Source of the DNA: Suillus spraguei
Lineage: Eukaryota; Basidiomycota; Agaricomycetes; Boletales; Suillaceae
Direction: 5' to 3'
Assembly: GCA_016800925.1 (NCBI GenBank)
Contig: JABCPU010000083.1
Location: 62,001-126,000 of the forward strand
Length of the DNA: 64,000 nucleotides
Part shown: positions 15,466-64,000 of the stretch, piece after piece
Layout of the letters: every line of letters begins with the position of its first letter
Position numbering within the stretch: the first letter of the stretch is position 1
The notes under the pieces: model-generated
What the model saw: only the letters and a program-made list of their open reading frames with translations
Databases searched by the model: none
What the model was told of the DNA's origin: nothing
Translations under genes and position numbers: made by a program

Positions 15466-16503
15466 ATGTCTGCTCCTGCCACTACCATTCACAATGAACA
15501 AGCCCTGGCTGAGTATATCGCAAATGCTATCAATGTTGTGATTGCTCCAGTCCAAGAGCAAGTTCAAAGGCTCAGGAATATGAACGATGTCTTACAAGAC
15601 CAGAACGAAAAACTCCACGAAGAACTTCGTCAATATAGGGAAAGAATTGATGAACTGGAAGCAAAACCGACATCAACAGGAGGAACTCCCAAAATTGCGA
15701 AGCCAACAGAGTTCACTGGAGGAAAAGACTCCATCGACGTCAAAACATTCCTGGCACAAGTATCCCTTTACCTCACACAATATCCCAATGCAACGCAACA
15801 ACAACATCTCAGCTTAATGTTGTCTTATCTTAAAGGAAATGCCGGAAAATGGGCAGAACCTTACGTTAAAAAACAAGCTGCAGGAGAATTAATCTTCGAA
15901 GGCTTCTTAGAGGAGTTCTCATGCATGTTTAAAGATGAGAACAAAGAAGCGAAGGCCATCAGAGAATTAGAAACCCTTAGGCAAGGATCTAGTTCTGTTC
16001 CAGAATACGTTGCATCCTTCAAACAAAAGTCGGTATTCACAAACTTCTCCGACTATGACCTCTGCCTTAAACTCCGATCTGGTCTACAAACCCGGATCAA
16101 AGAACAACTCGCTCATGTTGTGCTCAAAGACAAGAATACTCTCAACAAACTGATTGAAAGAGCAGTAGAAATTGGGCAAAACTTTGAAGAGTTGGACGCA
16201 GAAAAGAAGCGAAACACCTGGTGGACTCCCAAATCTAACAGTGGAGTTCCTTCTTCATCAAGGGCTGGACCCAGTAACAGTGACACTATGGATGTTGACT
16301 CCAGAAGGCAAAAGACTGCCCCTAAACCGCAAGGAAAGCCTGGTGCTTTTAAATGTTACAGATGCGGTGGAGAAGGTCACATGGCTAGGAACTGTAAAGA
16401 AGCGCCGAAACCAGCGCAAGTGAAGGCATCGTCTGCCGAAGAAGAAACCGCGCCTAAATGGTTCAAGGACTGGTTATCCTCCAAAGAAGGCAAGGGTTTT
16501 TAG
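15466..16503 (+). CDS. gag: Gypsy family 1 Gag
   Basis: 345 aa. Starts MSAPATTIHNEQALAEYIAN, followed by a short coiled-coil stretch (about residues 30-65), a retrotransposon Gag capsid-like region (about 75-245: FLAQVSLYLTQYP, then YLKGNAGKWAEPYV, then ETLRQGSSSVPEYVASFKQK) and a CCHC zinc knuckle near residue 300 (CYRCGGEGHMARNC). The family role is to assemble the virus-like particle and package the RNA. The stop at 16501-16503 directly follows the heptamer GGGTTTT, and the protease frame overlaps in -1, suggesting Gag-Pol is made by frameshifting. The frame is intact. Confidence 0.92.
   Translation: MSAPATTIHNEQALAEYIANAINVVIAPVQEQVQRLRNMNDVLQDQNEKLHEELRQYRERIDELEAKPTSTGGTPKIAKPTEFTGGKDSIDVKTFLAQVSLYLTQYPNATQQQHLSLMLSYLKGNAGKWAEPYVKKQAAGELIFEGFLEEFSCMFKDENKEAKAIRELETLRQGSSSVPEYVASFKQKSVFTNFSDYDLCLKLRSGLQTRIKEQLAHVVLKDKNTLNKLIERAVEIGQNFEELDAEKKRNTWWTPKSNSGVPSSSRAGPSNSDTMDVDSRRQKTAPKPQGKPGAFKCYRCGGEGHMARNCKEAPKPAQVKASSAEEETAPKWFKDWLSSKEGKGF
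16494..16500 (+). promoter_or_regulatory. Putative -1 ribosomal frameshift site G GGT TTT
   Basis: In the gag frame the codons read G GGT TTT and then TAG. This matches the canonical X XXY YYZ slippery pattern. A -1 slip gives GGG TTT TTA GAA and enters the pol frame, which stays open to 17498. The stop codon immediately downstream may act as the pause. No stem-loop was tested. Confidence 0.7.
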
Positions 16504-18629
16504 AAGGGTTGAAGTCAGAGTCTGCAGACCTAGACCTGAACAATCGATTCTCTATTCTTTCTAGTTTTTCAGATGTAATGGAAGTGTATATACGATCCAA
16601 ATCAGAACATTTTTATATTCCGATTACACTGAAAGGAAAGAACAGACAAGCAGACATAAAAGCACTTGTGGACTGTGGTGCATCAACATTATTTATAAGT
16701 GAAAGATTTGTGAAGAACAATGATGTCCGGTGTCATAAATTATTGCGTCCCATACCAGTCAAGAACATTGATGGTTCCTTAAATGCCGCCAGAGCTATGA
16801 CAAGATTCGCTGAAATAGGATTAAAGATTGGAGATCATGAGGAAGACAAAGCAGCCTTCATGGTTACAGATCTAGGAAGCGATGATGTTATTATCGGTAT
16901 AGATTGGCTAAGGTATCATAATCCGGAGATTGATTGGAACACAGGACGATTTGCTCTTACACGATGCCCAATTAAGTGTGAGACTAAAAAAGAAAAAAGA
17001 CAAAAAAATAGAGAAAAACGAAAAACCCAAAAACAGGGTGACTTGCCAGATCTGATTCCCACGGAAGAGGAAGATGATGACGAAGGCATGGCGAAGAAGA
17101 GGGCGATGGTTGAGGAAATAGAAGATGGGAATAGTTCAAAGAATGAATGGATTAGATATAAAGCTTCTATCGCCACAGAACAAAAAGTAGCAGAGGAAGC
17201 TACTAAGAAGAAAAAGTCTGTAGAAGAAATGGTTCCAGACTGGCTTCATGATTACCTGGGTGTATTCTCAGAAGAGGAATCAAAGAGATTTCCTGAAAGA
17301 AAGAAATGGGATCATGTGATAGATCTTAAAGATGAGAATGATCTTCCACCAAATGCAAAACTGTATCCTTTATCACCAAAAGAAATGGACACACTGAAAG
17401 ATTGGTTAAAAGCCGAAACTGCATTAGGACGTATTAGAGATTCACAATCTCCTGTTGCAGCACCTTTCTTCTTTGTGGCCAAAAAAGATGGCAAATTATG
17501 ACCAGTAATGGACTATAGAAAGCTCAATGAGAAAATGGTTAAAAACGCGTACCCTTTACCGCGATCTCAAGATCTAATTGATGCTTCAACTGGTGCCACA
17601 ATGTACTCTAAAATGGATGTACGATGGGGATACAATAATATTCGGATGAAAGAAGGAGACGAGTGGAAGGCAGCCTTCAAAACGCCTTTTGGTCACCATG
17701 AACCAACCATAATGTATTTTGGGTTGACAAATTCTCCAGCAACTTTCCAGACCATGATGAATGAAATATTTAGAGATCTCATTGATGGAAAGACGGTTGT
17801 TGTCTACATCGATGACATCTTGGTCTTTACAAATGGAAATAAGGAGCAACACCGAAAAGTCGTGCGAGAAGTACTCAAACGATTGAAAGATAATGACCTG
17901 TTCTTGAAACCAGAAAAATGTAGTTTCGAACAGTCTAAAGTCGAATTCTTAGGGTTGATCGTGGAAAAAGGCAATGTATCTATGGACCCTGTGAAAGTAG
18001 AAGGAGTATTAAAATGGCCTGTTCCCAAATGCATAAAAGACATACAAGCATTCATGGGTTTTGCCAACTTCTATCGAAGATTCATACTGGGGTTCTCAGA
18101 TATAGCCAGACCAATGAATGATTTGCTAAGAAAAGATGTTCCATGGAATTGGACGGAGAAACAACAGAATGCATTTGATGAATTGAAGAAACGATTCACA
18201 GAAGCTCCGCTCCTAGTAATGCCAGACATTGAGAAAAAGAAAAGAATAGAGACCGATGCTTCTGATTATGCATCTGGTGCAGTACTTTCTCAACAAATGG
18301 AAGATGGACTATGGCATCCTGTCACTTATTATTCAAAGTCAATGAATGATGCAGAACGAAATTACGACATTCATGACAAAGAATTATTAGCAATCATTCG
18401 AGCGTTAGAAGAGTGGAGGCACTATGTGCAGGGAGCACCTCATCCTGTGGAAATCTGGACCGATCATAAGAATCTCGAGTATTTCATGACAAGTCAAAAA
18501 TTGACACGAAGGCAAGCCAGATGGAGTCTGTTCCTGGCGGAGTATGAATTTACACTCCAACATAAACCTGGTGTAGTCAATGATAAGGCCGATCGTCTGT
18601 CTCGGAGATCAGACCACAGAGGGGGGTAG
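16494..18629 (+). pseudogene. pol: Gypsy family 1 Pol: protease, reverse transcriptase, RNase H
   Basis: Read in -1 relative to gag. An aspartic protease (LVDCGASTLFIS, with DCGA in place of the usual DSGA/DTGA, then VIIGIDWL) is followed by a Lys/Glu-rich linker. The reverse transcriptase has FFVAKKDGKL, PVMDYRKLN, FGLTNSPATFQ and the catalytic YIDD box (YIDDILVF). RNase H has IETDASDYASGAVL and HDKELLAIIRALEEWRHYV. One in-frame TGA at 17499-17501 replaces the Arg expected between DGKL and PVMDYRKLN, most simply CGA to TGA. The frame ends at a TAG (18627-18629) after a run of six G; one more G would read through into the integrase. With these breaks the copy is probably inactive. Confidence 0.88.
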
Positions 18630-18652
18630 AAAACGACAATTCTGATCGCATT

Positions 18653-20290
18653 TTGCTTAAACCGGAATTTTTCAAAATCAATGCTGCTAAAAGAGGCCAA
18701 GTTCTTATAGAAGGAGAAAAATCTCTTCTTAAAAAGATCAGACAAAGTACAGAACAAGAGCCTGAAGTGATGAAAGCGCTAGAAACGTTAAAAGCAGCAC
18801 CGGTGCAATTGCGTAGAGGAGTCGAAGAATGGAATGTTGAAGATGGATTGGTGTTATTCCAAGGATTGGTCTACGTTCCAAATGATAAAGAAATCCGCCG
18901 AGAGATTCTAGAGTTATTCCATGACTCACCACCAGCTGGACATCCTGGACGTGCCAAAACCTTAGAATTGATTTCCAGAAACTATTGGTGGCCAATGATG
19001 ACAAAAAGTGTTCACGACTATGTAGATGGTTGTGATCGTTGCAGACAAACAAAAGTCTATCCCAGTAAACCGACGAGACCTTTACAGCCAAATGAAGTTC
19101 CAGAAGGACCTTGGCAAACGATTACATGTGACCTGATTGTGGACCTACCAAAGAGTGAAGGGTGTGATAGCATTTTTGTTGTCGTTGATCGATTTACGAA
19201 ACAAGCACACTTCATTCCCACCAATAAAGAAGTAGACTCGAAGGAAATTGCCACGCTATTTTTAAAAAATGTATGGAAACATCATGGAACACCAAAGAAA
19301 GTGATTTCAGATAGAGGAACACAGTTCGTATCCAAATTTATGGGACAAATGTCAAAAAGATTAGGCACAAAATGGTCTGCTTCGACCGCCTATCATCCTC
19401 ATACGGATGGACAAACAGAACGCGTAAATCAAGAAGTTGAACAATATTTACGCCTGTTTACCTCTTATAGACAAAATGATTGGGTATCTTGGTTGCCGAT
19501 TGCAGAATTCTCGCATAATAACGCAGTCACAGTCACCGGTCATAGCCCTTTCAAAGTTCTATATGGATATAATCCAGAATTCACGATATCTCCTAATTCC
19601 AACTCCCGTATTCCTGTTGCCGATGAAAGAGTGGATCAAATGAAAGAAGCAAGAGATGATGCGGAAAATACTTTGAAACTAGTCAATGAACGAATGAAAC
19701 AGTTCTATGACAAAGGAGTAAAAGACGCACCACAGTATAAAAAGGGAGACAAAGTCTGGCTAGACGCAAAAAACATTAAACAACGTCGTCCAAGTCAAAA
19801 ACTGTCAGATCGTCATCTTGGGCCCTTTGAAATACTAGAGAAGATTGGCGAGGTGAACTATAAATTGAAATTACCGGCAAATTATCAGATCCATCTGGTT
19901 TTTCACGTTCAATTACTCACCCCATACTATGCATCTCAAATGATCCCTCATTCTCAACCCACCCGACCACCTCCTGACATGGTTGACGATCAGGAAGAAT
20001 TTGTTGTAGAAGAAGTATTAGATAGCCGATTATTCCGAGGAAAGCTGCAATACCAAGTAAAATGGGAAGGATATCCGATAGAAGAATCGACATGGGAACC
20101 AGAAGAAAATGTAAAGAATTCCCCGATTCTTATAGCAGAGTTTCATAAAAAGAATCCCACGGCGGCTAAAACCAAAAGAATTCAAGGCTCTATACTTAAT
20201 TCAGAAGATTTCAAAAAATGGAGAACACATAACATCAGACCTTCATACATTCGCGATGACACTCATCCTAGAGAGGGGGTAATGTCATGA
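18653..20290 (+). CDS. Gypsy family 1 integrase with C-terminal chromodomain
   Basis: The continuation of pol in another frame because of a one-base loss in the G run at about 18621-18626. The zinc-binding HHCC module is visible (HDSPPAGHPGR, then CDRCRQTK). The DDE core follows: CDLIVDLPKS, VISDRGTQFVS, and ERVNQEVEQYLR after TDGQT. A C-terminal chromodomain begins EFVVEEVLDSRLF and includes YQVKWEGYPIEESTWEPEEN; in chromoviruses this module guides insertion into heterochromatin. The coding sequence ends inside the first bases of the 3' LTR. Residues 1 to about 25 of the open frame are artificial, since the real start is the pol frame upstream. Confidence 0.92.
   Translation: MLKPEFFKINAAKRGQVLIEGEKSLLKKIRQSTEQEPEVMKALETLKAAPVQLRRGVEEWNVEDGLVLFQGLVYVPNDKEIRREILELFHDSPPAGHPGRAKTLELISRNYWWPMMTKSVHDYVDGCDRCRQTKVYPSKPTRPLQPNEVPEGPWQTITCDLIVDLPKSEGCDSIFVVVDRFTKQAHFIPTNKEVDSKEIATLFLKNVWKHHGTPKKVISDRGTQFVSKFMGQMSKRLGTKWSASTAYHPHTDGQTERVNQEVEQYLRLFTSYRQNDWVSWLPIAEFSHNNAVTVTGHSPFKVLYGYNPEFTISPNSNSRIPVADERVDQMKEARDDAENTLKLVNERMKQFYDKGVKDAPQYKKGDKVWLDAKNIKQRRPSQKLSDRHLGPFEILEKIGEVNYKLKLPANYQIHLVFHVQLLTPYYASQMIPHSQPTRPPPDMVDDQEEFVVEEVLDSRLFRGKLQYQVKWEGYPIEESTWEPEENVKNSPILIAEFHKKNPTAAKTKRIQGSILNSEDFKKWRTHNIRPSYIRDDTHPREGVMS
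20270..20282 (+). other. Polypurine tract of gypsy family 1
   Basis: AGAGAGGGGGTAA lies directly before the 3' LTR start TGTCATG, the expected plus-strand primer position. Confidence 0.8.
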
Positions 20291-20774
20291 ATGCCAAATA
20301 CAAATCATTACTCTTTCCTCAATTTCTGTTAAGACCATGCAAAACCGGAGATTAGCAAGAAGTCCTGGTCTTACATGGGGTTGTACCGGAGGGTTGTAAG
20401 TCAAAGGGGCTTGGCCTCAGCTCGTACGCTGTGCCCCTTACCCGAGTATGTGCCCTTAATTTCGGATGAAGTCCAAGGGAGAGTTCTGGTGGAGTCCGGA
20501 TGGAGGGTCCGGACGAACTCTAAGGCAGGATAGCTCGACAGAGCTCCGATGGACTTCCGGATGAGCGCGGGAATGCGCCGGAACTATTTCCGGAAGGTAG
20601 GGAGTAATGGTAACACTACTGGAACAAGTTCCAAGTAGAACAGATGAAGGATGGACCGCTGGACAAAGTCCAGGGCAGGATAGGAGCAGAGCTCCGGAGG
20701 GAAAGATGATCCATAGATGTCAGAGGATAGGATAGGATGGATCCGAAGGACTAGGGGTCCGAAGGTCTGGAGCT

Positions 20775-20872
20775 CGGAGGAGCGGAGGAGCGGAGGAGCA
20801 GAGGAGCAGAGGAGCAGAGGAGCAGAGGAGCAGAGGAGCAGAGGAGCGGAGGAGCGGAGGAGCGGAGGAGCG
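20775..20872. repeat. 9 bp tandem repeat, about 11 units
   Basis: Consecutive GGAGCGGAG or GGAGCAGAG units. The central block uses CAG and both flanks use CGG. Confidence 0.88.
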
Positions 20873-21497
20873 TAGCTCTGTGGATCTTAGAGGAAGTGTT
20901 GGCTACTAGAGAGGAGTAGGTCCAGATATGGTGTAGAGATAGTATAGACTACTCCGGACAAGGTCCGGAATAGAAACAGACAGTATAAGACTACCAAAGG
21001 TAGAGTCGGAGGTGAAACAGATGATAGACAGAGATGGACGAAGTCCGAACAGATTATAGGACATAGGATCAAAGCTCCGGCCTAGGGAGTAATCCCATAG
21101 GCCTGAGTTGGAAGCTTACAAGGGCCGGAGCCCAAGTGCAAGAACGGAGACGGAGTTATATAGACATGATAACAGGATACAGAGTAATCAAAGGAATATA
21201 CAGAAGTAGGAACAATGAATCAGACTAAGGTCTGCAGGAGTTGTACTACAAGTTTATATACTGTAGGAGCATGCCGGAGGGTAAGTACGGATAGTCCGAG
21301 GCTATGTCGGAAACACATTAGTAAGTACAGCGGGACATAAGGCTATGAACTCGGAGATGAAGCTTGTACGAAATACTTATCAAGACGGAGGCAGAGATCA
21401 CCGAGAACCGGAAGCACAGAGATACCCAGAAGCCGGAGACACAGGTATATTCTAAAAGGGGTAATGCGCAGGTGCACGGGAATAGTTCGGATATGAA

Positions 21498-21555
21498 CTC
21501 GGATCGGATATGGACACGGATCGGATATGGACACGGATCGGATATGGACACGGAT
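21498..21555. repeat. 17 bp tandem repeat, about three units
   Basis: TCGGATATGGACACGGA is repeated head to tail near the downstream end of the inserted LTR. Confidence 0.8.
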
Positions 21556-22125
21556 GGATATGGATTGGAGTGGATGGGTGGATCGGATATGTGAACTGGA
21601 GTGGATGGGTGGATCAGATTTGTGTAGGTTGGGTGTCTGGATGTCCATGGATTGGATTTGATCTAGACCTGAATGTACGGTATATGACAATTTCCCTAAA
21701 GCGTCTAAACCAGCGCTAAGACAAACACAAACTCCATTGAAATCCCTATAACCGCTTCTATAACCGAACTTCCTGATGAAGATGAAGAGATCTTTTATGA
21801 TGCTATTGGATAAGATAAGATAAGATAGTGTCATGTGATCTTAGAACCTTCTAGAATATGATGTCATAACAATGTCATAATCATCACATCGTACGATTCT
21901 CATTTCTATTTTATGATTGGCTAGTAGTTTCAAACTCAGTTTATATCTCAGTTTCAATATGTGTATATAGTTAGCTAGTTTCGCTGTAGTAGTTCTTTAG
22001 TTCAAACCTCTTGTATCTACACCTGTAGCAATCCAAGACGTCCTTGCTCTTCTCTTCCTCTGTGATAACCTTAGTTTGAGTCCTAGTCTCTGCCCTAGCG
22101 TTAATTCATTTTGTGGGTTGTGACA

Positions 22126-24319: not shown

Positions 24320-27300
24320 ATCCTGGCCATCACGACAGCTCGCATTGCGTGCATAGATGGTGACCTATCTACTGCTGAAGGACTACTCACGCGTGATATT
24401 AACATCGATGCGAATAACCATACTTCCTACGTTTATCGCTCATTTGTTATGGCGCGCAAACAAGACTGGGGTTATGCCCTTCAGGATGCAATTAACGTGA
24501 GATTCACTGATTCGTCATCACCCCCTAAGAAAGGCTAACTCGATGGGACACAGTCCGTTAGCATTAAGCCCTCATTGACAGGCTATATCTCCAAGGGCAT
24601 CGCCCTCTGTGGAAAAGGCCACATCCGGGACGCAAGGACAGCATTTGATGTTGCATCTATGTACACAAATCAAGACCCACAAAGCATTCATTTTCTGCTT
24701 TTGATCAAGGTATGTTACAGTTGCCTCGCATACTATCCGCTTCATTCCAGGTTTTAGGCCATTGCTCTGTTCGGTGCAGATCAGCATGACGAGGCAAACC
24801 TACTCCTCAAAGAGCTCGCTGCAAGTTGTCTGAATGCTGATATTCGGGCATGTCGTGTCGTGCAAGTAAGTATCATGCAGCCATACTGGGTCATCAACAC
24901 TAACCTTCGCAACTCGCACATTAGGCGTATCTTCGCGTTCAACTCGGAATCAAAGCCTTGGATGACGCACGTCATGACGAAGCTGTTGACCATTTCACTG
25001 CCGCTCTCAACACCAGTGATCCATCATCGAAGTTGGACATTCATGAGATGTATGAGGATTTGGTGGTGGTATGTTAATGCATATCCAAAATCCTTTTCAT
25101 AACCGAGTCCCTTGTCCAGCTCTTCGGCTGGGACCTTAAATCGTTGTGGCTCGCTGCACACCAAAAACGGTGCCAGGCCTTCCTTTCCGCACGCAAAGTC
25201 AATGAAGCCCTCGAATCATTCAAATATATGCTCGACAATATCGACGAAACAACGAAGGCCAGCTGCCTCGACTGGTCTACTGGCAAGTCTTCAGTAATCT
25301 CGCCGAGGCTATAATCCTCAACTGCATTTCGCTCAGATTTCAAGAGAGAATGCAGCGCACTCTGTACTGTCAACGGAGATACTGCTCTCCTTGCGAGCGA
25401 CTATGACAGGGCTATTGACCTATAGAGGGCGATCGACCTGGATTATACATCCGACGTAATCTTTGCAAATCGCAGCAAGGCAAAGTTGGGGAAACTGCTA
25501 TGGAAGGATACGCTTCTCGACGCGCAGAAGGTGCGATGGCGTCTATTTTTGTAGCCCATATTAACTTTGGTGATGCATAGGTCACCGAACTCAATGCTTC
25601 GTCTCACGTTGGATACCAGTTGGCACACGCAGCGCTGTGTGGCGCACAACGTTACGATGAAGCCATTGATGCCTTCACAATCATGTTGTCCAAGTTGGAC
25701 GATGCCCCCGAAACGCAGATACGAGGTGAGCCTTGGAACTCTCTTGCATCGTCCCGAAATCCCTACTTGGTTCTGCAGATCTGCGTCAGCAATATGTCTC
25801 TCCATCCGAAGTAGGAGACACTATTCAAAGAGCTATTTGGAATGAACTCGAATATGAATATGCCCCCCTTCGTCTGCTCAATACCTCTGCAGGTCTTTTG
25901 TGCGATAGAACGGCACAAATAAAGGCTTTTAAAACGAGTCCAGAGTACATTGAGCTAATATCATTTCCAACAAAGGATTCGAACCTCCGAACGGAGCGCA
26001 TCAATGACGTAGTGGCGATTTACTTCCGCTGCGTCCTGCTATCACACAGGTGGAAAGAGACGGAGGCGCTGTTGCACGACATCCAGGACAAAGTTGTGTA
26101 CGAGTTGAGTGGATTTGGGGCATTGCGAAACTGCAGTCATTCTGCAAAATCGTCCGTGATACTGGGTATCGCTGGGCATGGATGGATACTTGCTGCATCG
26201 ACAAGAAGAGCAACACTGAGCTTCAAGAATCGGTCAACTCCATGTTTGTCTGGTATCGCCACTCAGCACTTACCATCGTCTACCTATACAACGTCCTTCC
26301 TTCATCCCTGTCCGGTGCACTGGCGAAGAGTGTTTGGAACAAGCGAGGATGGACCTTTCAAGAATTCGTTGCTCCAAAAACCTTAATATTTTATCAGAAG
26401 GATTGGTCGTTATATCTTGGTGATCGCTCTCCCAACCACAAATTGTCCCCTACGATCATGAAGGAGTTGAAGGATGTAACGGGTATAGATGCACAGGCCG
26501 TGATCGCCTTCCATCCAGGGATGAGCGACGCCCGACAGAGACTTCAATGGGCATCATCACGCACCACGACGTTGCAAGAAGACATCGCGTACTCGTTATT
26601 TGGTATTTTCGGTGTACACCTACCTGTAATCTACGGTGAGAGGAAGCAGAATGCGCTCGGGCGGCTCCTGCAGGAGATCGTTGCTCGGTCAGGTAACATC
26701 ACTGTCCTCGACTGGATCGGACAGCCGTCCGAGTTCAATAGCTGTCTTCCAGCCTATATCGCCTCTTATATCACTCCTCCACGCATCTTTCCATCTTTGT
26801 CTGAAGATGAGATTCAGTCAACTATTTTTGCTGCAAAAAAATCCTATGGCTTTGGATTCGGCTTCGAAACTTTACGATCGGCTCGATAACACGAGCGCTG
26901 CTCGTTTCGCGAATTGCAGACTGCATCTGCCCTGCATCACCTTCCGTATCACAAACATCAGTCTGAGCTATGGTCCATCTCGGGAAACGCATTTTACGTA
27001 TGAAGTCAAGGCAGACGGGCTGCATGATCTCCTTATCACAACCAAAGAGCCGATCGTTCAGTTCTCACGGACAAGGCTCACTCGGCAAACCTTCGTGCTT
27101 GTCCGTCCCTGGGATCGGTCACTCCTCGAACTACCCGAATTTGCAGATTTTCCCGATGTTGCGGAGAGCGAGGGGGATTACTGGACACCGCCTTCTTCTC
27201 CGTCAGACGACTCACCTAGCCGTTCTCTTCTAAAACAGAAGGTGATTGATCTAGAATTGCGAGCATTGCGATTGCTCGTTCGCTTTGGGCAGCCTTTCAG

Positions 27301-27436
27301 CGCATTTTTGCTAGAGCGGCAGCGCGGAGGAGAATACAAGAGGGTCGCGTCGGATCATGATATCATTGCACAGGTCGTCAAAGACATTACTTCCGTTCCA
27401 GACTTGATGGACCTCAGGACGATAGAAATACTGTAG
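24320..27436 (+). pseudogene. TPR and HET-domain part of WD40-TPR-HET gene, copy 1
   Basis: Exons separated by short introns encode TPR-like helices (LLTRDINIDANNHTSYVYRS, ALQDAIN, SISPSLTGYISKGIALCGKG), then a HET domain: LSHRWKETEALLHDIQDKVV, then AWMDTCCIDKKSNTELQES, VWYRHSALTIVYL, KRGWTFQEFVAPK and LQEDIAYSLFGIFGVHLPVI. A C-terminal region follows (RFANCRLHLPCITF, then TRQTFVLVRPWD). HET domains mediate incompatibility-type cell death in fungi. Three breaks are visible: TAG at 25423-25425, where copy 2 has a Tyr codon; a one-base loss near 26112 in a short G run; and another near the A run 26835-26841. Either the gene is dead or some breaks are sequence errors. Confidence 0.75.
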
Positions 27437-27655
27437 CTGTATGTTTTCTCCCGAAGATTAAGGATCTGACCAGTTTTGATTGGTATTTATAGGTTTTCAC
27501 CAGTAGTGTGATTCTAGGCTCAAATGAAGCTTGTCCCCTTCACAATTGAATGGCGCAGGGAGATTATCCCACTAGTAGACACGTGTTAGTGTTTGGAATT
27601 TGCACTGGGGCCTTCGGATAACGAGAATACGAAAGGTACATTTTTTGATCACAGA

Positions 27656-43217: not shown

Positions 43218-43926
43218 TGTTAAGACCATACTCAAAGGTAGAGAGATCCGAAGGGCTTTGGCCTCAGTTCGTGCACTGTGCCCCTTTCCCGAGTAATGCC
43301 TCTTATTTCAGGGAGAAGTTATACGTCTGAAGATCCAGAAGGAGTTGCGTGACGGATCCGGACATCCAAAGGTATCGGATATGATACGTCCGAAGGTTAT
43401 CCGGAAGTAAGAATAGAACAAAGATTAAGACTAGCTTCAGAATGAATTCCTAACTAGAAACTAACAGAGATAGACTATCCAAAGATAGAGTCGGAGATAT
43501 AGACTATAGGAATCAATCCCAAGTCTCGGAAGATGACTTAGAGCAGAAAGTGGCTTAAGTCCGGAGGAAGCAGAATGAGCAGAATCTAAGATGATATTCG
43601 AACTAAGGTTCTACGGAGATCTACAAGTGGTTTATATACTGTAAGTATCTAAGACGGATAATCAACAAGTCCGGGACCGAGGGCTATGTATGAAGTGTAA
43701 TGGAAGTCTATTAGTTAATGCACAGCGGATCAGTAAGCATGAATTGGAAATGAACATAGGTAATGGATCAGTGACACAGGACAGAAATATACACAGCCGG
43801 AATACTGGAAACAGGAGGAATGACAAAAGGAGATAGACGCAGATATACACAAGGAAGTTAAGGTGCGAGAAGTGAGCACATTCGGATGGGTGGTCCGGAC
43901 AGGATCTGTGGACGGACGGAAATGGA
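43218..43926 (-). mobile_element. Truncated LTR, gypsy family 2
   Basis: Starts TGTTAAGACCATACTCAAAG and follows the copy at 60535-61303 until about ATGGA at 43926; the last about 60 bp, including the TATATGACA end, are missing. Minus orientation, with the inverted TATATAAAC motif at about 43630-43640. Confidence 0.85.
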
Positions 43927-44207
43927 AGGCAGTTACACAGTGCAACAGCTAGCTACAACAACCAATCCATGCCACTGGCTGAGATTAACAAAACTGAGTA
44001 AAATTAGAGCATAGCAGACAGCAGACAGCAGACAGCACTACATCCAGTCCTACATCCAGCAGCAGCCTCCTGAAAGGTCAAACATTACTAACTTCTACAC
44101 CTCCACAGCCCCCTCAAGCTCTCGTGCATCTCTAGCCTCGGCTTCATACTCTTGAATTGCATCATCAAATATATCATCCATGAAGCCGATGGGTGTTGCC
44201 TGCGCAG

Positions 44208-54420: not shown

Positions 54421-57036
54421 AGATCCTAGCTATTACCACAGCCTGTGATGCGTGCATTGATGGAGACCTGTCTACCACCGAAGAACTACTCACGCAAGAG
54501 ATCAATGCAGATATTGATATTAACAATCATATTTCCTATGCCAATCGATCATTTGTTATGGCCAGAAAATATGACTGGGACCACACCCTTCAGGATGCAA
54601 TCAAGGTAAGATTCACTAACTGATCATGACCCCATTACAGAAGGCTAACTCGACAGCGGGATAGTCCATCAGCATCCAACCCTCATTGATGGGCTACATC
54701 TCCAAGGGTATCGCCCTCTGCAGAAAAGGTCTTGTCTGGGATGCGAGGGCAGCATTTAATGTTGCATTCATGTATACCGTTCATTTTCTGCTCTTGATCA
54801 AGGTATGTTACAGTTCCCTCTAATATTATCTGCTTCATTTGCGTATTTCAGGCCATCACCCTCTTCAATGCAGATAAACATGAAGAGGTTAACCTGCTTC
54901 TCAAAGAACTGGCTGCTGGTTGTCCGAATGCTGATACTTGCGCATGCTATATCGTGCAGGTAAGTATCATACAGCCACATTGTGCTATCAACCTCAATTT
55001 TTTCCAACTCACACACATTAGGCATATCTTCGTGTTCAACTCAGAATCAAAGCTTTGACTGACGCACGTCACGATGAAGCTGTTGACCAGTTTATTACTG
55101 CTGTCAACTCTAGCAATTTCTCATCAAGATCACCCATTCATCTTATTTACGAAGACTTGGTGGTGGTATGTTGAGATGATGCATACACAATGCTTTTCAT
55201 AACCGAGTGTTTTGTCCAGCTCTTTGGCTGGGACCTGAAGTCCTTGTGGCAAACAGCATGCCAGAAGCAGTGTGATGCACTCCTTCAGGCAGGAAAACTT
55301 CAAGAGGCCATGAAATCATACCAATACATGATGGCTTTGAGTGACGAAAATACCAAGGCCGACTTCCTTGACTGGTCCAACAGCAAGTCTGGAGTTCCCA
55401 ATGTGACACGGGCTACAATACTTACCCTCATTTAACTCAGCTTTCACAGAAGAATTGAGCGTGCTCTTTCTTATTGATGGAGATACTGCCCTCGCTGCAA
55501 GTGACTATGACAAGGCCATTGATCTATATTCAGCGGCGATTGACTTAGCTTCTGTATCCAATACTGTTTTTGCAAATCATAGTATGGCAAAGTTGGGGAA
55601 GGGGATGTGGATAGAAGCACTTCTCGATGCACAGAATGTACAATGTCATTTCTTGTTTCTTTACTTATTCTTATTGTGGTGATACACAGGTCATCTGACT
55701 CAACCCTTCGTCCCATGTCGGGTATAAGTTGGAGCATGCAGTGTTACATGGTGCACACCGTTATGATGAAGCTATTGCAGCCTTCCAAATGATGCTCTCA
55801 AAACTGGATCATGCCCCTGACACTGATATATGAAGTAAGCCCCAATAATTCACAAGTCAACATGCTTTGACTACTTCTGCAGAGTTGCGCCAGCAGTATC
55901 TCAGTCCATCTGAAGGGTGCACTGGCGAGGAGTGTTTGGAACAAGCGAGGATGGACCTTCCAAGAATTTGTCGCCCCAAAAGTTGTCATCTTCTATCAGA
56001 AGGATTGGTCATTATATCTCGATGATCAGTCTTTCAACCACAAAGAGTCCTTTGCAATCATGAAGGAGTTGGAAGGTGCGACGGGCATAGACGCACGAGC
56101 CCTGATCTCCTTCTGTCCAGGGATGAGCAATGCTTGACAGAGACTTCAATGGGCATCATCACGTGTCACTACATTGCAAGAAGACATTGCATACTCATTG
56201 TTTGGTATCTTCAGTGTACACCTACCTGTAATCTATGGCAAAAAGAAGCAGAACGCACTCGGGCAGCTCCTGCAGGAGATCGTGGCTCGGTCTGGTGATA
56301 TCACCGTCCTCGACTGGATTGGACAACCGTCCGAGTTCAACAGCTGTCTTCCAGCCTATATCACCTCTTATACCACTCCTCCACGCACCTTTCCATCCTT
56401 GTCTGAAGATGAGATTCAGACATTTCTCGCTTTGCTGTGAAAAAATCCCATGACTTTGGATTTGGCTTCGAAACTTTACGATCGGCTTGATAACATGAGC
56501 GCTGCTCGTTTTGCAAACTGCAGACTGCATCTGCCCTGCATCACCTTCCATGTCACAGACATCAGTCTGAGCTATGGTCCATCTCAGCAAACGCATTCTA
56601 TGTATGAAATCAAGGCAGACGGGCTGCACAACCTTCTTATCACAACCAAAGAGCCGATCTCACAGACAAGACTCACTCGGCAAACTTTCGTGCTTGTCCG
56701 TCCCTGGGATGGGTCACTCATCGAACTACCCGACTTTGGAGATTTTCCCAGTGGGGATGATGTGGAGAGTGAGGGGGATTATTGGACACCGCCTTCTTCT
56801 CCATCAGACGACTCACCTGGCCGTTCTTTTCTGAAACAGGAGGTGATTGATCTGGAATTATGAGCATTGTGATTGCTTGTTCTTCTTGGGCAGCCATTCA
56901 GTGTGTTTATGCTAGAGCAGCAGCATGGAGGAGAATACAAGAGGGTCGCATCAGATCATGACATCATTGCGCAAGTCGTCAAAGGCATGACTTCTGTTCC
57001 AGACCTGATGGACATCAAGACGATAGAAATACTGTA
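54421..57036 (+). pseudogene. TPR/HET part of WD40-TPR-HET gene, copy 2, HET core deleted
   Basis: Follows copy 1 (24320-27436) exon by exon through the TPR region (NHISYANRSFVMARKYDWDH; DYDKAIDLYSAAIDLASV). At about 55910 the sequence jumps from the equivalent of 25811 straight to the equivalent of 26314, losing about 500 bp that in copy 1 encode the HET core (LSHRW to DTCCIDK). The remainder is recognisable: LQEDIAYSLFGIFSVHLPVI, DWIGQPSEFNSCLPAYITSY, RFANCRLHLPCITF, and TRQTFVLVRPWDG. Additional stops occur (TGA after GMSNA, TGA after FLALL, TGA after VIDLEL). It cannot encode a HET protein. Confidence 0.8.
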
Positions 57037-57961
57037 GGTGTACGTTTCCCCCTGAATATTAGGGCTCTGAGTGATATTTCATACCCGTGTATATCATATT
57101 ACATGCATGTGCATTGGACTATATTTTCATTTCAAAGCAGACTACGCAGTCCCTATGACATTGCACTTGATCGTCTGAGTCTACAAGCACAGCTGGATTG
57201 AAACTAAATATCAAGTCTTTACCAGGGTTCTGCAGTGCCAGAATCATCATACAACCTGTAAAAGCTAGCACAGCAAAACACATGATCGCAGCGCTATTAA
57301 CGATATAGTCCAACCCAGTGCCATCGAGAAGCTCAAGAACTTTTGAACATATCGTCTTCATTCATTACATCAATTTGAATGACTCGGATACAGGACTGGA
57401 TGTAAGGTCATCAAGATTCAAAGTCAAGGCTATGTCATGAAGGCAACAGGTGGTGGACACAGTTAGAAGAAGACTGTAGGAGCTTCCTGGTAATATCAAG
57501 GCCGATTCCCTGGATGCATACTATAATAAGGTTAAGAAACCATGTGTAAGCTGGACACTTACTACATGCTTAGCACATCAATCACGTGTGACTTACCCCA
57601 TATGTAAATGGCCATGAAAACCCAAACTTGGGTCTCCTACCTACTGCCATCTGCTCATTTGTATAATGTTCTAGAAATGAGTCCATGCTCGTTATGCCTT
57701 TGGCACAGGAAACAAAAGGAGTGCTTCACACTCCTTTTGCTCCCTGGCCAAGGCTTCATCCTAATAATCACTACTTCATGCACCTTAATTTATTCATAAT
57801 TATAGTGGAATTTTCAAACAGACATGTACATTTTGAGCAGCATTTCAAGAAAACCAAGACTAAAATCTACTGCATCATCTAAAAGTGCACTATACATTGC
57901 ATCACTCAGTCCTCTATATAAAAGTACATTGATACATCAATCAATCTCCAATCTCCAATCC
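57037..57961. other. Intergenic, no feature recognised
   Basis: Only short open frames. A minus-strand frame at 57119-57361 contains one hydrophobic stretch (IMCFAVLAFTGCMMILAL) but no family match. Confidence 0.35.
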
Positions 57962-59815
57962 TCAATCCTCAACCTCCATATCATCTCTATCTCTAAGTCC
58001 TCTCAGTACTTCTGTATACACCACATTGGTTGTCTTTGACCCTTCTTCATGCTCTGGAAAGATAGCATGCACTCTCTCTGGGTGAGTGCAGTGAGACAAA
58101 GCCACATACAGCTGTCCATGACTGAACATAGGAGTCTGCAAATCCAGCCCAACCCACTTCACACTTTGACCTTGAGCCTTGTTGATTGTCACAGTGAACA
58201 CAAGATGAATGGGGAATTGGCGACACTTGAAAGGGAGATTGTCTTCAGACATGACATCCAGTATTATGCGGGAGATTAGGACAGTGTTCTGATCATCTTG
58301 ATGAGCTCCATCAACTCCATTCCTAAGAATATGACACCTGAGGATATGCGTGGTCCAAGACAGGAGGATCATCCTAATTCCATTATAGAGGCCATTGGTG
58401 GGGTCCAAGTCGCCCAATAACATGAGAGGAATACCCACTTTGAGTTCCAATTTGTGCAAAGGGAACCCTGATGACATGAGAGTATGAAGGAACTCTGGTG
58501 GGATGTAGTCATAGTCCTTCTCAGTGATTGAGTCTATGCTGGTGAAGGCCACTTTATCTCCAGGGAATGATTCAAGAATGTTGGCATTGATTTTGTCCAC
58601 ATCAGTATTCTTTGCGGAGAGGATGGTATATTCCAGGAAAAAGGAATCATTCACAGGAGGATGTCCAGGGAGCAGAATAGGAGAGTATAGGGCATTAATG
58701 AGAGACTGGATATCATTGTCAGGGCAGTGCATATGAATTGGAAGGGCAACCATTCTATCTACATATGTGCCCTTCCCAGCTCCGATCTCAAGAAGCCACT
58801 TTGCAAATTTATTAGAGGCAGGGTCTTGACTAGGCTGCATATTTGTCTTCAGGTGGAAGATGTGAAGCCTTGGCCATATGTGAGATCTGCAAAATGTAGC
58901 ACCAACTATCTGCTTCCTGTATCTATGAGGCACCACCAGCAGGGTCTGTCTAAAGTCTCCTCCAAAGAGCATCATCATTCCTCCAGAATCAGCATTAATG
59001 TTTAGAAGGTCGTGTAATGAGTGGTCAAGGCATTCCAGGATGTAATGGTATAGCATAGGAATTTCATCACAGATGATGAGGGAGGTGGCCTTGAGAAGCT
59101 CATGCACAACATCTCCTTTCTTGATGTTGCAGAAGCTGTCCTCATTGATGGAAATTGGAATTTTGAATTGCAAATGAGCTGTGCATCTGCCTAGCAGGAG
59201 GAGAGAAGTGATTACAGAGGAAGCAACACATAGGACAATCTTGCCTTCAGCACAGAGCTTTGAAGCAATGAGCTTACAGAGATATGTCTTTCCACATTCA
59301 CCTGCACTATGGACAAAGTAGGAATATTCAGGTCTTTGCTCATCACATTGCATTGCATCATCAACCACTGCATCAAAGACTGCCCTCTGCTCCTCATTGA
59401 GAGAAAGCACTCCTGGATCCACAGGTGCAGGTTGAACAGGTTCATTAGGAATATGAGGTATATGTGGAGGCTGTATCTGTGCTGCCATGAGCTCTGCTTG
59501 CACCTGCTGTCTTATCTCCTGTCTGTCCTGCTGTGGACAAACATTACACTGATGATGTCTATTATTGTGAGCAGCATTTGTCTGATCATTCAAATGTGCA
59601 TTATAATCAACAGGAGGATGATGAGCATGCAACACATGTTCAATTGCATTTTGTGGTAAGCTAGGATATTGTGCAACTGGTAGTGGTTGATGTACAAAGT
59701 AAGGAGGATGCTGCATAACAGGCACAGCTGGCATGAAATTTGGCTGTACAGGAGCAGCAGGTCTGTTCTGATTATGGACAGCATGATGACAATTGTGTCT
59801 GGTAGGTGATGTCAT
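57962..59815 (-). CDS. PIF1-like, Helitron-type helicase
   Basis: 617 aa, one uninterrupted exon. Residues 1 to about 135 are His/Pro/Gln-rich with no domain. The rest is a superfamily 1 helicase of the Helitron/PIF1 type: LSLNEEQRAVFDAVVDDAM, motif I region YFVHSAGECGKTYL, Walker B LIICDEIPM, motif III GGDFRQTLLVVP, motif V/VI TINKAQGQSVKWVGLDLQ then HGQLYVALSHCTHPERV. In Helitrons this helicase is fused behind a Rep/HUH endonuclease; no Rep motif is seen here, so this is a solitary or 5'-truncated unit. Motif I is unusual (SAGECGKT where GPGGTGKT is typical), and the usual Arg of ALSR is His, so activity is doubtful even though the frame is open. Confidence 0.82.
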   Translation of the reverse strand: MTSPTRHNCHHAVHNQNRPAAPVQPNFMPAVPVMQHPPYFVHQPLPVAQYPSLPQNAIEHVLHAHHPPVDYNAHLNDQTNAAHNNRHHQCNVCPQQDRQEIRQQVQAELMAAQIQPPHIPHIPNEPVQPAPVDPGVLSLNEEQRAVFDAVVDDAMQCDEQRPEYSYFVHSAGECGKTYLCKLIASKLCAEGKIVLCVASSVITSLLLLGRCTAHLQFKIPISINEDSFCNIKKGDVVHELLKATSLIICDEIPMLYHYILECLDHSLHDLLNINADSGGMMMLFGGDFRQTLLVVPHRYRKQIVGATFCRSHIWPRLHIFHLKTNMQPSQDPASNKFAKWLLEIGAGKGTYVDRMVALPIHMHCPDNDIQSLINALYSPILLPGHPPVNDSFFLEYTILSAKNTDVDKINANILESFPGDKVAFTSIDSITEKDYDYIPPEFLHTLMSSGFPLHKLELKVGIPLMLLGDLDPTNGLYNGIRMILLSWTTHILRCHILRNGVDGAHQDDQNTVLISRIILDVMSEDNLPFKCRQFPIHLVFTVTINKAQGQSVKWVGLDLQTPMFSHGQLYVALSHCTHPERVHAIFPEHEEGSKTTNVVYTEVLRGLRDRDDMEVED

Positions 59816-60534
59816 TTGAAGTCAGTTAAGTCTGTCAAGTTCATGCTGTGATCAATGATTGCATTCTGGCATTGTCTGTTCTATATTTCTAAATGGTGAT
59901 GTGTAAATATTAGCATCATGCACCAATGCATATTAGCAGCAACTCATGGAATGAGCAGATTTTGTTCCATTCTATTGTTCAAACTGTTGTTTATAGGAAA
60001 TGCAAATTTGAGTTTTCTGAACTCATTCATAAGTCAATTTTGATTTTCATCAATATTAAACAAAACCCACAAAAAGTGTCTTTGTGTTACCAAATGCAAG
60101 CAAATTGTGTAACCAAATGTGTGACAAAATTTCTATTATTGCTTTTGCTATTCTTGGTGCTCACTCTCCCATGGTAGGAAAAGTGCATTGTTTGTCCATA
60201 TTGTGCCTGGAGTGCAGCAGGTGTGTGGATTACTGTCCACTATATTGTATTTGGCAGGTGTTTCGGATTTTTGGACTCCATAGAATTTTAGTTGTCAGAA
60301 TTCTGAAATTGGACATTTTTTTCATATGATAATGCAAGTTTTCTTTACAATTGTCTATTGTCTATTTTAGAGTAGTCTAGCAAGCTATCCAAAAACCATG
60401 TGAGCATAAGTGAAAACCATGTGGCCCTATGTGACATATGTGAAAGCCACATGAGCTGGCAAAGTCCTTCCCACACATTCTCCCTTTCTTTTTAGATACA
60501 CAGTTATATTGCCCAATTCATTTTAGTGTTTCCC
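59816..60534. other. Region between helicase gene and family 2 LTR
   Basis: A/T-rich, with no gene recognised. It likely contains the helicase promoter. The expected upstream Rep domain of a Helitron is not visible here on the minus strand. Confidence 0.4.
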
Positions 60535-61303
60535 TGTTAAGACTGTACTCAAGGGTAGAGAGATCCGAAGGGCTTTGGCCTCAGTTCGTGCACTGTGCCC
60601 CTTTCTCAAGTAATGCCCCTTATTTCAGGGAGGAGTTATTCGTCCGAAGACCCGGAAGGTGTTGCGTGACAGATCCGGGTGTCCGAAGGTGTCGGATATG
60701 ATACGTCCGAAGGTTATTCGGAACATAAGGAGAGGACAGAGATTAAGGCTAGTTTCAGAACGAGTTCCTAACTAGAAACTAACGGAGATAGACTATCCGA
60801 AGATAGAGTCAGAGATATAGACTATAGGAATCAATCCTAAGTCTTGGAAGGTGACTTAAAGTGGAAAGTGGCTTAAGTCCAGAGGAGACAGAATGAGTAG
60901 AATCTAAGATGATATTCAAACTAAGGTTCTACAGAGATCTACAAGTGGTTTATATACTGTAAGTATCTAAGATGGATAATCAGCAAGTCCGGGACCAAGG
61001 GCTATGTACGAAGTGTAACGGAAGTCTATTAGTTAATGCACAGCGGATCAGTATGCATGAATCGGAAATGAACACAGGAAACAGATCAGTAACACAGGAC
61101 GGAAATATAAACAGCCGGAATACCGGAAACAGGAGGAATGACAAAAGGAGATAGACGCAGATATACACAAGGGAGTTAAGGTGCGAGAAGTGAGCACATT
61201 CAGATGGGTGGTCCGGGCAGGATCTGTGGACCGGACGGATATGGAATCAATCGGATCTGATCGGATATGGTTGGATCTGAGATTAGAAGTATGGTATATG
61301 ACA
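60535..61303 (-). repeat. 3' LTR of gypsy family 2 element (769 bp)
   Basis: TGTTAAGACTGTACTCAAGG to GGTATATGACA on the plus strand; matches the solo LTR at 12465-13232 in reverse. The flanking TTCCC (60530-60534) would be the target duplication, but the other end is outside the window. Confidence 0.92.
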
Positions 61304-61318
61304 GTATCCCCCCCTTAG
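61304..61318 (-). other. Polypurine tract of gypsy family 2
   Basis: On the minus strand CTAAGGGGGGGATAC ends immediately before the LTR start TGTCATATACC. This fixes the element as minus-oriented. Confidence 0.8.
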
Positions 61319-61498
61319 GGCCGAACCCCTGAGGCACAAGAAGCGTCGATCTGGATCGGACAAGATTAATGTGAGACGATGGGGAAGTTTGATGGTTGTG
61401 GTGCTGAGTCTGTAATCTGACAGATATACGGACATCAGACGTCTGAAATGATTCCTACCCCCACTTCATATCCTTGTTAACAAAACTTGCCTCCAAAC

Positions 61499-62534
61499 AT
61501 GTCTGGAAAGAAATCCAATGCCCCTAAGTCTGCTGCCGACCTTGTGGCGGATCTGGAACAGCAACTGGCTGCTGCTAAGGCTGCAGTGGAAGCCGAGGCG
61601 GAACGGAAGCGGAAAGAGGCGGAGGAGCAGCAAAGGCAGGAGGAGTTGAAGCAGATTGAGTTGGCGGAGATCCGGAGGGAAATGGAGGAAAAGAGGTGGA
61701 GAGCACTGATTGAGGCTCGGGTGAGTGCTGTGGACTCTTCCAGATCCGGATATTAATGGATTGGCAAAGGCCAAGGCTGCTCCTGCATCTGGAGCAAAGG
61801 ATGGGTACTGTTCCCGTTGCATCACTAAGGACCGGATGTGCCAGTGGGGTGATGCTGAGAAGAATGCCATGGTGAGTCATCTGAAAAACTTCGGATCCGC
61901 TGATTTCGATGTTTCGTAGATTAAGTCCTGTGACGTCTGCCGGAAGGACAAGGCCACTTGTCCTGGAAGGCCCGGATTCGTTAAGGGACCCAAGGGCCGG
62001 AAGAGGCAGCGTCCTGCTGGTACTCCGTCTCCGAAGGGCAAAGGCAAGCGCCGCCAGAGGAATCCTACTCTGGATGTGGCAGACGCGGATGTCTTCTCTA
62101 ATCCAGTCACTATCGAAGGTACAGATGAGGATGTTGTGGAGTATGATGATCAGGCTTGGGTGGCCGCTGCTAATGGCATCATTGCTGAGTTGGCACGGAC
62201 CAATGGACTTCTCCAAGATGGTATTGCGGTGGCGGAAGGGAGTCGGATTGCCATGGAGCGGATGAGCTCTACCATGGAGGCCTTCCTCCAGCAACAGAGG
62301 GAATTCCAGGCCCTGCTCATTGAGGAAATCCGGACCGGATTTAGGCTTTCCGTTTCTGCCAGATCCGACAAGGATGGCACTGGTGAGGAGATTGGGGAAG
62401 AGGTGGCGGATGAGAATGGAGGAGAGATGGCGGATGGGACTGGGGAGAGATGGCGGATGGGACTGGGAGGAGACTGGGGTCCAGAGGTGAAATGGAGACT
62501 GGTGCTTAGTCCAGATCCGGATTTCCGCTACTGA
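61499..62534 (+). CDS. Antisense Zn2Cys6-like gene inside gypsy element
   Basis: Three exons, 61499-61720, 61770-61871 and 61920-62534, with GT-AG introns of 49 and 48 bp, all in phase 0, giving 312 aa. Residues about 15-72 form a charged coiled coil (LVADLEQQLAAAKAAVEAEA, then EEQQRQEELKQIELAEIRRE). Exons 2 and 3 together create CSRCITKDRMC, a 13-residue spacer and CDVCRKDKATC. This CX2CX6C...CX2CX6C arrangement is that of the fungal Zn(II)2Cys6 DNA-binding cluster. A Lys/Arg/Pro-rich basic stretch follows (KGPKGRKRQRPAGTPSPKGK), then a second helical region (MERMSSTMEAFLQQQREFQA) and an acidic tail. It lies between integrase and 3' LTR, convergent with pol (31 bp between stops). Its function is unknown; it might regulate element or host genes. 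Confidence 0.7.
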
Positions 62535-62565
62535 CCTCAATGTACTTATATTTGTTATGTACTTT

Positions 62566-64000
62566 TCAAGCAATGGGACCAGGCTTGTCCGATATGCTGA
62601 GTGGAAATCGCTACGAGATCCGATGCATTTCGAGTTCTGTGGCCAGTAACCAGGAAGTTTCTTCATCCATTCCTTCATATCTGACCAACGGACGAGGTAT
62701 AGAAGTTGGCAGTGGTGCCTACGACGGTCCAGTTTAGAGTCCAGGATTTCGGATATCTCATACTCTGGTTCTCCATCGACTTCGACTGGTGGCAGAGGAG
62801 GTTGGATGCGATTAGGAATGGTGTTCGGAACTGCTGGCTCTAACTGCGAGACATGGAAAACAGGATGTACGGAATGCATAGAATCCGGAAGTGGATGGCG
62901 AAGGAATGAGTACCCAGGCGGGATATAATTTCGAATGGTCCCAAATTCTTTTCCGAAAGTTTCTTCGATGGACGAGTGGAGCAGAAGTACTTGGTTTGAC
63001 AAAGACTTGTTCTCCAATCCGGAAGTCTGGAGCGGCTGTCTTTTAGCGTCCGCAGGTCCTTGATAGCGTTTCTGAGCTTCGGACATCTCATCTCGGAGGA
63101 ACTGGTGAAGTTTGTTAAGGTCTAGGGCATATTCCTGGGCACGGATGGAGGATAGGTCGCATTCTGGATGGATGGAAATGTTGGATGATAACCTTTATTG
63201 GCGAAGAAAGGTGAAACTCCAGTAGTGGCACTCGGAGCGTTATTGTATGCAAACTCTGCGAGGGGCAGTAGCTCGGACCAGTTGTCCTGCTGATAGTTGC
63301 AGTAGATCCGGAGGTACTGTTCCAGCGTTTGGTTGGCACATTCTGTTTGTCCGTCCCCTTCAGATGATATCCGGATGTGAAGTGTAGGACCATGTCCAAT
63401 GCCTTTCCTAAGGAACGGAAGAAGTGGGATACGAACTCTGTTCCTCGATCCGAGGTTACATGGGATGGGACTCCATGCTTAGAGAAGACATGGAGGAGAA
63501 ATAGGCGGGCGAGATCAGGAGAAGTAATGGTGTCATGGGTCGGGACGAATATGGCTTGCTTGGATAGGCGATCTATGATGACGAGGATGGCTGTAAAGCC
63601 GGATGAGTCCGAAGTTGTTCAATGAAATCCATAGAGATGGAATTCCATGGTTTTTCTGGGACGGGGAGTTGCTTGAGTAGTCTGTAGGGCTTATGTCTTG
63701 GAACTTTGGCTCGGGCGCAGGATGTGCAGGATCTGACGTACTCTTTGACAAAGGCTCGTACTCCGGGCCAGGTATAGTTGCATCGGATGAGCTCGAGAGC
63801 ACGATTCTGTCCAAAATGTCCGGATAGGGGGTGGTCATGGCAATTCCGGAGGATGCGAAGTCGTAGATCATTGGTATCCGGAATGTAGGTGCGGTTGTCA
63901 CAACAAAGGAATCCACCATCGTCTATTGTCCATCTCGGATCTGAAGGAACGGAAAATGCGTTTGTGCAATGGGGTCATTAGGGAGTGCTATCAGAATGTC
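62566..64000 (-). pseudogene. Gypsy family 2 integrase with chromodomain, frameshifted
   Basis: Minus-strand pieces in changing frames. From 64000: the zinc module (HDHPLSGHFGQNRALE, then RSCTSCARAK), KPWNSISMDFIEQL, a frame change near 63610, [40 protein letters not shown], another change near 63360, [20 protein letters not shown], then a long open piece with NYIPPGYSFLRHPLPDSMHS, HPVFHVSQLEPAVPN and a chromodomain start EYEISEILDSKL with LLYLVRWS. The last residues are frameshifted again, with the probable stop near 62566. Reverse transcriptase is outside the window. The lower 400 residues of the long minus-strand frame reaching 61575 are merely antisense to the Zn2Cys6-like gene. Confidence 0.85.

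Follow-up and report, generated by a model that had tools for sequence, protein, structure and literature searches.

An antisense, spliced gene for a Zn2Cys6-like protein in a Ty3/gypsy lineage of Suillus

An antisense gene at the 3' end of a Ty3/gypsy element

The window analyzed here is a 64,000-nucleotide stretch of Suillus spraguei DNA (contig C1069:62001-126000 of the 86.2-Mb assembly that was searched), and its positions 61499-62534 (+) hold a three-exon gene that lies antisense between the integrase and the 3' long terminal repeat (LTR) of a Ty3/gypsy element. The spliced product has 312 residues without a stop, both introns are in phase 0 and bounded by GT-AG, and six cysteines in the pattern CX2CX6C-X13-CX2CX6C (residues 88, 91, 98, 112, 115 and 122) stand three on either side of intron 2. 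A sequence-only reading had described the exons, the introns, the cysteine pattern formed across an intron and the antisense location by the LTR and the polypurine tract, and all of these were confirmed. The features are listed below, CGGA/TCCG being a four-base word that recurs in the element.

61499-61720 (+), exon 1: start codon; charged, mostly alpha-helical N-terminal region (helix predicted on the homologue P0007)
61721-61769 (+), intron 1: 49 nt, phase 0, GTGAGT...AG
61770-61871 (+), exon 2: first CX2CX6C
61872-61919 (+), intron 2: 48 nt, phase 0, GTGAGT...TAG, separating the two cysteine triads
61920-62534 (+), exon 3, including the stop: second CX2CX6C, basic region, conserved helix, acidic tail
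61304-61498 (+), leader from the LTR to the ATG: 195 bp; candidate antisense promoter or 5' untranslated region (UTR)
61304-61318 (-), polypurine tract, recognized on sequence
60535-61303 (strand not assigned), LTR 3' of pol: 769 bp with 22 CGGA/TCCG; precedes the antisense gene and may house its promoter
62535-64000 (-), end of gypsy pol: integrase and chromodomain region, in broken frames, running beyond the window

The splice site of intron 1 is the same in the S. spraguei gene model P0001. In exon 3, the basic region (KGRKRQRPAGTPSPKGKGKRRQRN) resembles a nuclear localization signal (NLS) as judged by eye, and the conserved helix lies around EYDDQAWVAAANGIIAELARTNGLL. Position 62534 is not the usual stop of the gene family, because the tail of the window copy is frame-shifted and its final residues, up to 312, are read in the shifted frame; when spliced on the columns of the window, 22 of the 61 distinct copies aligned below meet their first stop after 305 residues, and the printed tails end in ...EMETGA. 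The element runs on the minus strand, and its pol is broken into several frames in the window copy. In the homologous copy L064, pol matches RVT_1, RNase H, integrase H2C2, rve and SH3_Tf2-1 above the Pfam cut-offs, with Chromo just below (24.2 versus 25.1).

Copies were sought with two separate queries. Using the DNA of the gene, 40 of 220 candidates were scored, and all 40 matches cover query positions 1-1035 or 1-1036 (of 1036) at 95-100% identity. Using the integrase flank, 40 of 218 candidates were scored and 30 loci fetched; the window's own excluded, the gene adjoins the integrase in 29 of 29 fetched loci and is full length in 27, the two partial ones being truncated (L042) or cut by the end of a contig (L051). 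There was no empty junction among these 29 loci. The loci found by gene and by integrase partly overlap, so that it is the queries that are independent, and not all of the copies. Eight loci fetched with the LTR included the window's own and one truncated copy (L003), while the other six (L002 and L004-L008) lack both the gene and the integrase within 1.5 kb and appear to be solo or 5' LTRs. The window itself has two more LTRs of the family, at 12463-13232 (-) and 43218-43927 (+), which are 94.7% and 91% identical and have no internal part within the window.

A sister family in the same genome, represented by the distant copies L082 and L083, carries a P0007-type gene (+) with a gypsy integrase (-) just beyond it. 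Its intron between the cysteine triads is at the same place as intron 2, and the S. spraguei gene model P0025, whose sequence matches the gene in L083, is spliced accordingly. With the H2C2 integrase profile, which gave 1508 candidates, we also scored the best 150 and grouped them by the range of the profile matched, a crude proxy for family. Among the matches listed, at least 48 of 54 group A integrases have a gene match on the opposite strand 0.5-3.5 kb away, and for one of the six others (C536) the gene is in fact present in locus L041; nearby gene matches among those listed number 0 of 44 in group B, 0 of 51 in group C and 0 of 1 in group D. Gypsy family 1, a group B family, occupies 15439-20287 (+) of the window with gag, protease, reverse transcriptase/RNase H, integrase and chromodomain in several frames. 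It has no antisense gene match nearby among the matches listed, and its pol frame ends where the LTR is read to begin, leaving no space for the gene.

The gene is thus a component of the element and not a passenger. Its presence in 29 of 29 integrase-found loci and in the sister family speaks against a later insertion or a recent passenger, readings that we rejected, and it is shown to be an accessory gene of a Suillus Ty3/gypsy lineage, with the same location in another, distantly related family. Searches among proteins with the sequence and with a profile returned 15 and 72 relatives, respectively, the latter including a few weak ones; every relative from a named organism is Suillus and the others are metagenomic, in a search that reaches only proteins sharing short words. 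Some metagenome records name family members as bacterial or phage proteins (P0028, P0032, P0036, P0069, P0070, P0072, P0073 and P0074, the last five being weaker matches), with names such as YbaR, MukF, replication initiation timing and phage tail. These records look like misnamed fungal element proteins.

Selection on the spliced reading frame

The 75 loci in which 700 or more bases could be aligned, shorter ones being dropped, gave 61 distinct sequences, the window included. Over the exons of these copies, diversity at codon positions 1, 2 and 3 is 0.057, 0.055 and 0.109, and diversity in the two introns (0.095 and 0.102) is close to the third-position level. The introns are not wholly free, because in the most diverged copies they are nearer to the window (distance 0.37) than are the synonymous sites (synonymous divergence, dS, 0.44-0.77). 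Of seven frames tested, the spliced plus frame has the lowest ratio of nonsynonymous to synonymous polymorphism (pN/pS), 0.312 when taken over all pairs; the unspliced frames gave 0.42, 0.75 and 1.12 on the plus strand, the first two of which include exons of the gene, and 0.53, 0.83 and 1.28 on the minus strand. Coordinates for this comparison follow the intact copy L020, so that its zero stops are a matter of choice; the median over the copies is also 0. Relative to the window copy, the ratio of nonsynonymous to synonymous divergence (dN/dS) is 0.14-0.38 in 13 diverged copies (dS 0.10-0.77) and, for the five close copies listed, 0.18-0.86; it ranges from 0.14 to 0.50 over 36 pairs of nine diverged copies, again including the window.

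The six cysteines are kept, in order, in 60, 60, 61, 61, 61 and 60 of the 61 copies. Donor 1 reads GTGAGT in 57 copies and GTAAGT in two, and donor 2 reads GTGAGT in 55, GTAAGT in five and GTGAAT in one. Intron 1 is present in 59 rows of the alignment, the remaining two being a deletion (L072) and a truncated copy (L003), and intron 2 is present in all 61, in L073 without an AG acceptor; no clean intron loss was seen among the 61 rows. Introns of an antisense gene are not spliced from the sense genomic RNA that is copied, and they persist here because the gene is antisense to that RNA. Purifying selection within the family is shown to maintain the gene as a protein, and it works at the level of the active lineage of elements rather than copy by copy. 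The sequence-only reading had proposed that antisense orientation lets introns persist, as is seen here, and had asked whether the gene sits at the same place in family copies and for a comparison of dN/dS. The findings it had named as contrary, an empty junction, loss of the cysteine pattern or a separate later insertion, were not seen in the 29 loci, the aligned copies or the sister family.

In 10 of 11 diverged copies, the leader lies nearer to the window copy than the introns do (distance 0.06-0.20 versus 0.08-0.37), with L078 level (0.105 versus 0.100); in L070, the leader distance is 0.14, versus 0.37 for the introns and a dS of 0.77. This conservation may suit a promoter or 5' UTR, and signals for the 3' end of the sense strand could explain it too. 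Kept splice sites and leader are indirect signs of a putative antisense transcript. Four diverged copies (L070, L071, L075 and L076) are poor in CpG, with 10-22 per kb versus 45-59 in three longer close-copy loci. This looks as if CpG had decayed in them, and would fit methylation of the family.

It is scarcely credible that the gene is a chance antisense frame over a real coding region on the sense strand. Although the sense strand is open over 954-1062 nt just past pol in 5 of 5 copies examined and, in the window copy, holds an open frame of 539 codons, the pN/pS values of its frames (0.53, 0.83 and 1.28) stand against 0.31 for the spliced plus frame, and introns, splice sites, cysteines and homologous proteins are all in the plus frame. 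We rejected the sense-strand frame after pol as a real gene on pN/pS; a chance antisense frame is contradicted by codon-position diversity, cysteine conservation and pN/pS. Recent capture of a host transcription factor gene, carried along as a passenger, is very improbable, given the presence of the gene in all 29 integrase-found copies and the sister family and the purifying selection across copies. Zn2Cys6 proteins are host regulators in fungi, which would suit such a capture, and introns suggest a genomic rather than a cDNA origin; yet no host ancestor was identified in general searches, which did not include a systematic search for host genes outside elements. The points against capture concern a recent event and leave an old one unaffected.

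The Zn2Cys6-like protein and the CGGA/TCCG word

The sequence-only reading had placed the product near the Zn2Cys6 cluster, and a profile search gave a borderline match: the Suillus homologue P0007 scores 21.2 bits against Pfam Zn_clus (PF00172), just over the curated cut-off of 21, whereas the window protein scores 10.2. Zn_clus is the family that most homologues match (8 of 14 at E <= 10), albeit weakly, and the fold matches are weak, yet Zn2Cys6 only. The alignment to the LAC9 fold (model residues 87-127) spans both triads in order, so that a circularly permuted cluster need not be invoked; Pfam puts the second triad on the first half of the Zn_clus model in both the window protein and P0007. 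The Zn(II)2Cys6 signature has 5-12 residues between cysteines 3 and 4. As this spacing is 13 in the window protein and 14 in P0007, and exceeds the signature, we file the domain as Zn2Cys6-like and not as a member. Neither the window protein nor any of the 14 homologues matched PF04195 (TRP28) at E <= 10, in a Pfam search whose HMMER filters can drop weak matches, and no bZIP family was among the matches of the 14 homologues. The near-invariant cysteines, the weak fold and profile matches, the NLS-like stretch and the flanking helices support, without proving, the view of the product as a nuclear protein that binds DNA through a Zn2Cys6-like domain.

Zn2Cys6 proteins bind DNA at CGG triplets in a zinc-dependent manner. 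The word CGGA/TCCG was first spotted by eye, and all tetranucleotides were then ranked against dinucleotide shuffles. It is first in the internal part of L064 (141 versus 44.2 expected, z 15.6), in the LTR of the window (22 versus 4.9, z 8.3) and in a second, mostly unalignable LTR family (50 versus 10.9, z 11.6), and in the sister family it is second behind CCAG/CTGG (z 4.8 in L082 and 3.9 in L083). Gypsy family 1 shows no enrichment (86th of 136, z -0.6), nor does a host stretch (40th, z 0.7). In pol of five copies the word reaches 33-34 per kb, in all three frames, with z values of 7.0-7.8 relative to shuffles that leave the protein and its codon usage unchanged; for the gene, z is 5.1-7.7 in four copies relative to codon-preserving shuffles, and each intron holds 2-4 occurrences. 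The same shuffles gave z values of -1.4 to 0.7 for the frames of family 1. Codon bias as the cause is excluded by the codon-preserving shuffles.

The word numbers 1.0-9.5 per kb in the 2-kb bins of the window, apart from five bins that contain the element, its LTRs or the second LTR, where it reaches 11.5-27 per kb. The excess is an absolute gain, 20-34 per kb versus 1-9.5 in bins without these LTRs or the element. CpG decay sparing a single context is unlikely, as CGGT, CGGC and CGGG are near their frequency in host bins and CGGA exceeds its own several times over. Across 15.2 kb flanking six LTR loci, of which two are partly near-identical, the word averages 2.6 per kb, and a group C integrase stretch of 535 bp has three occurrences (5.6 per kb). 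Median spacing is 21 bp in L064, the LTR has about one word per 35 bp, and L064 shows a mild preference for TCCG[GA]A around the word.

A seemingly motif-rich 3' LTR of family 1 was considered as a counter-example and set aside, since 20327-21689 reads as a solo LTR in its own right, bounded by a target duplication. This 1363-bp repeat (TG...CA, 36.7 CGGA/TCCG per kb) is inserted in the 3' LTR of family 1 with a 5-bp duplication, ATTTC. Other genomic copies match it repeatedly at 56-bp steps, pointing to tandem units of varying number.

Possible functions and comparable systems

With a probability of about 0.5, we propose that the accessory antisense gene encodes a self-recognizing nuclear regulator, which would act in trans through CGGA/TCCG to keep copies of the element active. 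The gene would be transcribed from a promoter in the conserved leader or the LTR, and its protein would recognize its own element through the word (CGG plus A), which is spaced every ~20-35 bp over LTR, pol, gene and introns. Acting in trans on all copies, it would most likely keep them transcribable, as an activator or anti-silencing factor. Several observations weigh against a simple link between gene and word. The old copies L070 and L071 are not rich in the word; exon 3 of L082 is not rich either (2 versus 2.9 expected); and the gene content of the second motif-rich LTR family is not established. The direction of the regulatory effect is the weakest step, the data appearing to fit an activator, an anti-silencer and a repressor alike.

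A narrower form, which we hold tentatively and below even odds, is a self-recognition system in which the zinc-cluster protein would coat its own family only and either shield it from host silencing or drive its transcription, independently of the similar strategy of VANC discussed below. A different nucleic-acid role, as a chaperone, nuclear import factor or integration-site factor, with the excess of CGGA/TCCG arising from a host factor or mutational bias, is rather doubtful. The basic region and coiled-coil-like helices would suit many functions, a motif-rich LTR of unestablished gene content exists, and import or regulatory roles were proposed for plant antisense open reading frames (excerpts of PMC7264820); set against this, the weak fold matches are to Zn2Cys6, Zn_clus is the most-matched family among homologues, though weakly, and the motif excess is a gain and not the loss of other CpG contexts. 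Feedback repression, in which an antisense nuclear factor resembling HBZ of human T-cell leukemia virus type 1 (HTLV-1) would bind or titrate LTR factors, damp sense transcription and limit copy number, we regard as unlikely. Antisense orientation, splicing and location on the 3' LTR side match HBZ, as far as described in excerpts of PMC10186651, and the LTR is rich in the motif, but the word is dense in pol and the gene as well, and a repressor acting at the promoter has no need of sites there; moreover, no bZIP family is among the Pfam matches.

Like Gal4, LAC9 and PPR1 of the Zn(II)2Cys6 class, to which it has weak fold and profile matches, the Suillus protein has six cysteines in two CX2CX6C halves; it differs in its longer inter-triad loop (13-14), in the score of the window protein below the Pfam cut-off and in being encoded by a retrotransposon. 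An additional antisense gene, brtn, is likewise found in Boty-like elements of the ascomycete Botrytis cinerea, gag-pol elements with a chromodomain, to judge from a title and from passages in other papers; the original description is reportedly that of Zhao in Virology (2011). Plant aORF-3R genes (Grande gene23, RIRE2, Retand TRP28 and PvRetro13) are also antisense between pol and the 3' LTR (excerpts of PMC7264820 and PMC11963269). The Grande protein is nuclear and that of Retand is predicted to bind DNA, according to the same excerpts; such proteins are described there with SMC or TRP28 domains or none known, whereas the Suillus gene has a Zn2Cys6-like domain and two introns, and the word 'intron' does not occur in the main texts of these two papers. 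Accessory genes antisense to LTR elements have long been on record without a known function (excerpts of PMC7264820).

As is proposed for the Suillus gene, HBZ is a spliced antisense gene, expressed from the 3' LTR and encoding a nuclear regulator of transcription-factor type. HBZ differs in having a bZIP instead of a zinc cluster and in belonging to a retrovirus, and no element-wide DNA word is described for it in the excerpts of PMC10186651. VANC of the Arabidopsis VANDAL elements similarly pairs an element-encoded protein with a short word accumulated in its own family, its motifs lying in non-coding tandem repeats (excerpts of PMC5735166), whereas the Suillus word, a putative binding site, also fills coding sequence. 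Accumulation of a word in the encoding family, as with VANC, is seen for CGGA/TCCG, though it is shared by the LTR family whose gene content is not established. VANDAL elements are DNA transposons; if self-recognition is true, a fungal LTR element would have reached a VANC-like strategy independently, with a fungal regulator fold.

Among the papers listed in the literature searches, which were a fraction of those matching and included few subscription ones, none described an antisense gene with introns or a Zn2Cys6 domain in an LTR element of a fungus. As far as these searches go, what is new is the domain of Zn2Cys6-like type, the pair of introns and the word that recurs across the element, antisense accessory genes themselves being already known. 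The gene offers a recognizable domain of DNA-binding type, introns by which expression could be told apart by strand, many copies to date and compare, and a candidate target word. If the proposal is true, it would reveal a means by which a retrotransposon labels its copies within the genome of a fungus, and would show that an accumulating motif can spread throughout coding sequence.

Elsewhere in the window, a WD40-repeat frame of 757 residues lies at 7445-9715 (+), with 14 stretches of a 129-bp repeat at about 77-81% identity, and a HET-domain reading frame lies at 26008-26886 (+). The stretch 26314-27469 recurs at 55916-57070 with 85.6% identity. A PIF1-like helicase frame of 619 residues, perhaps a Helitron remnant, is found at 57965-59821 (-), and the bin 58001-60000 has only 3.5 CpG per kb.
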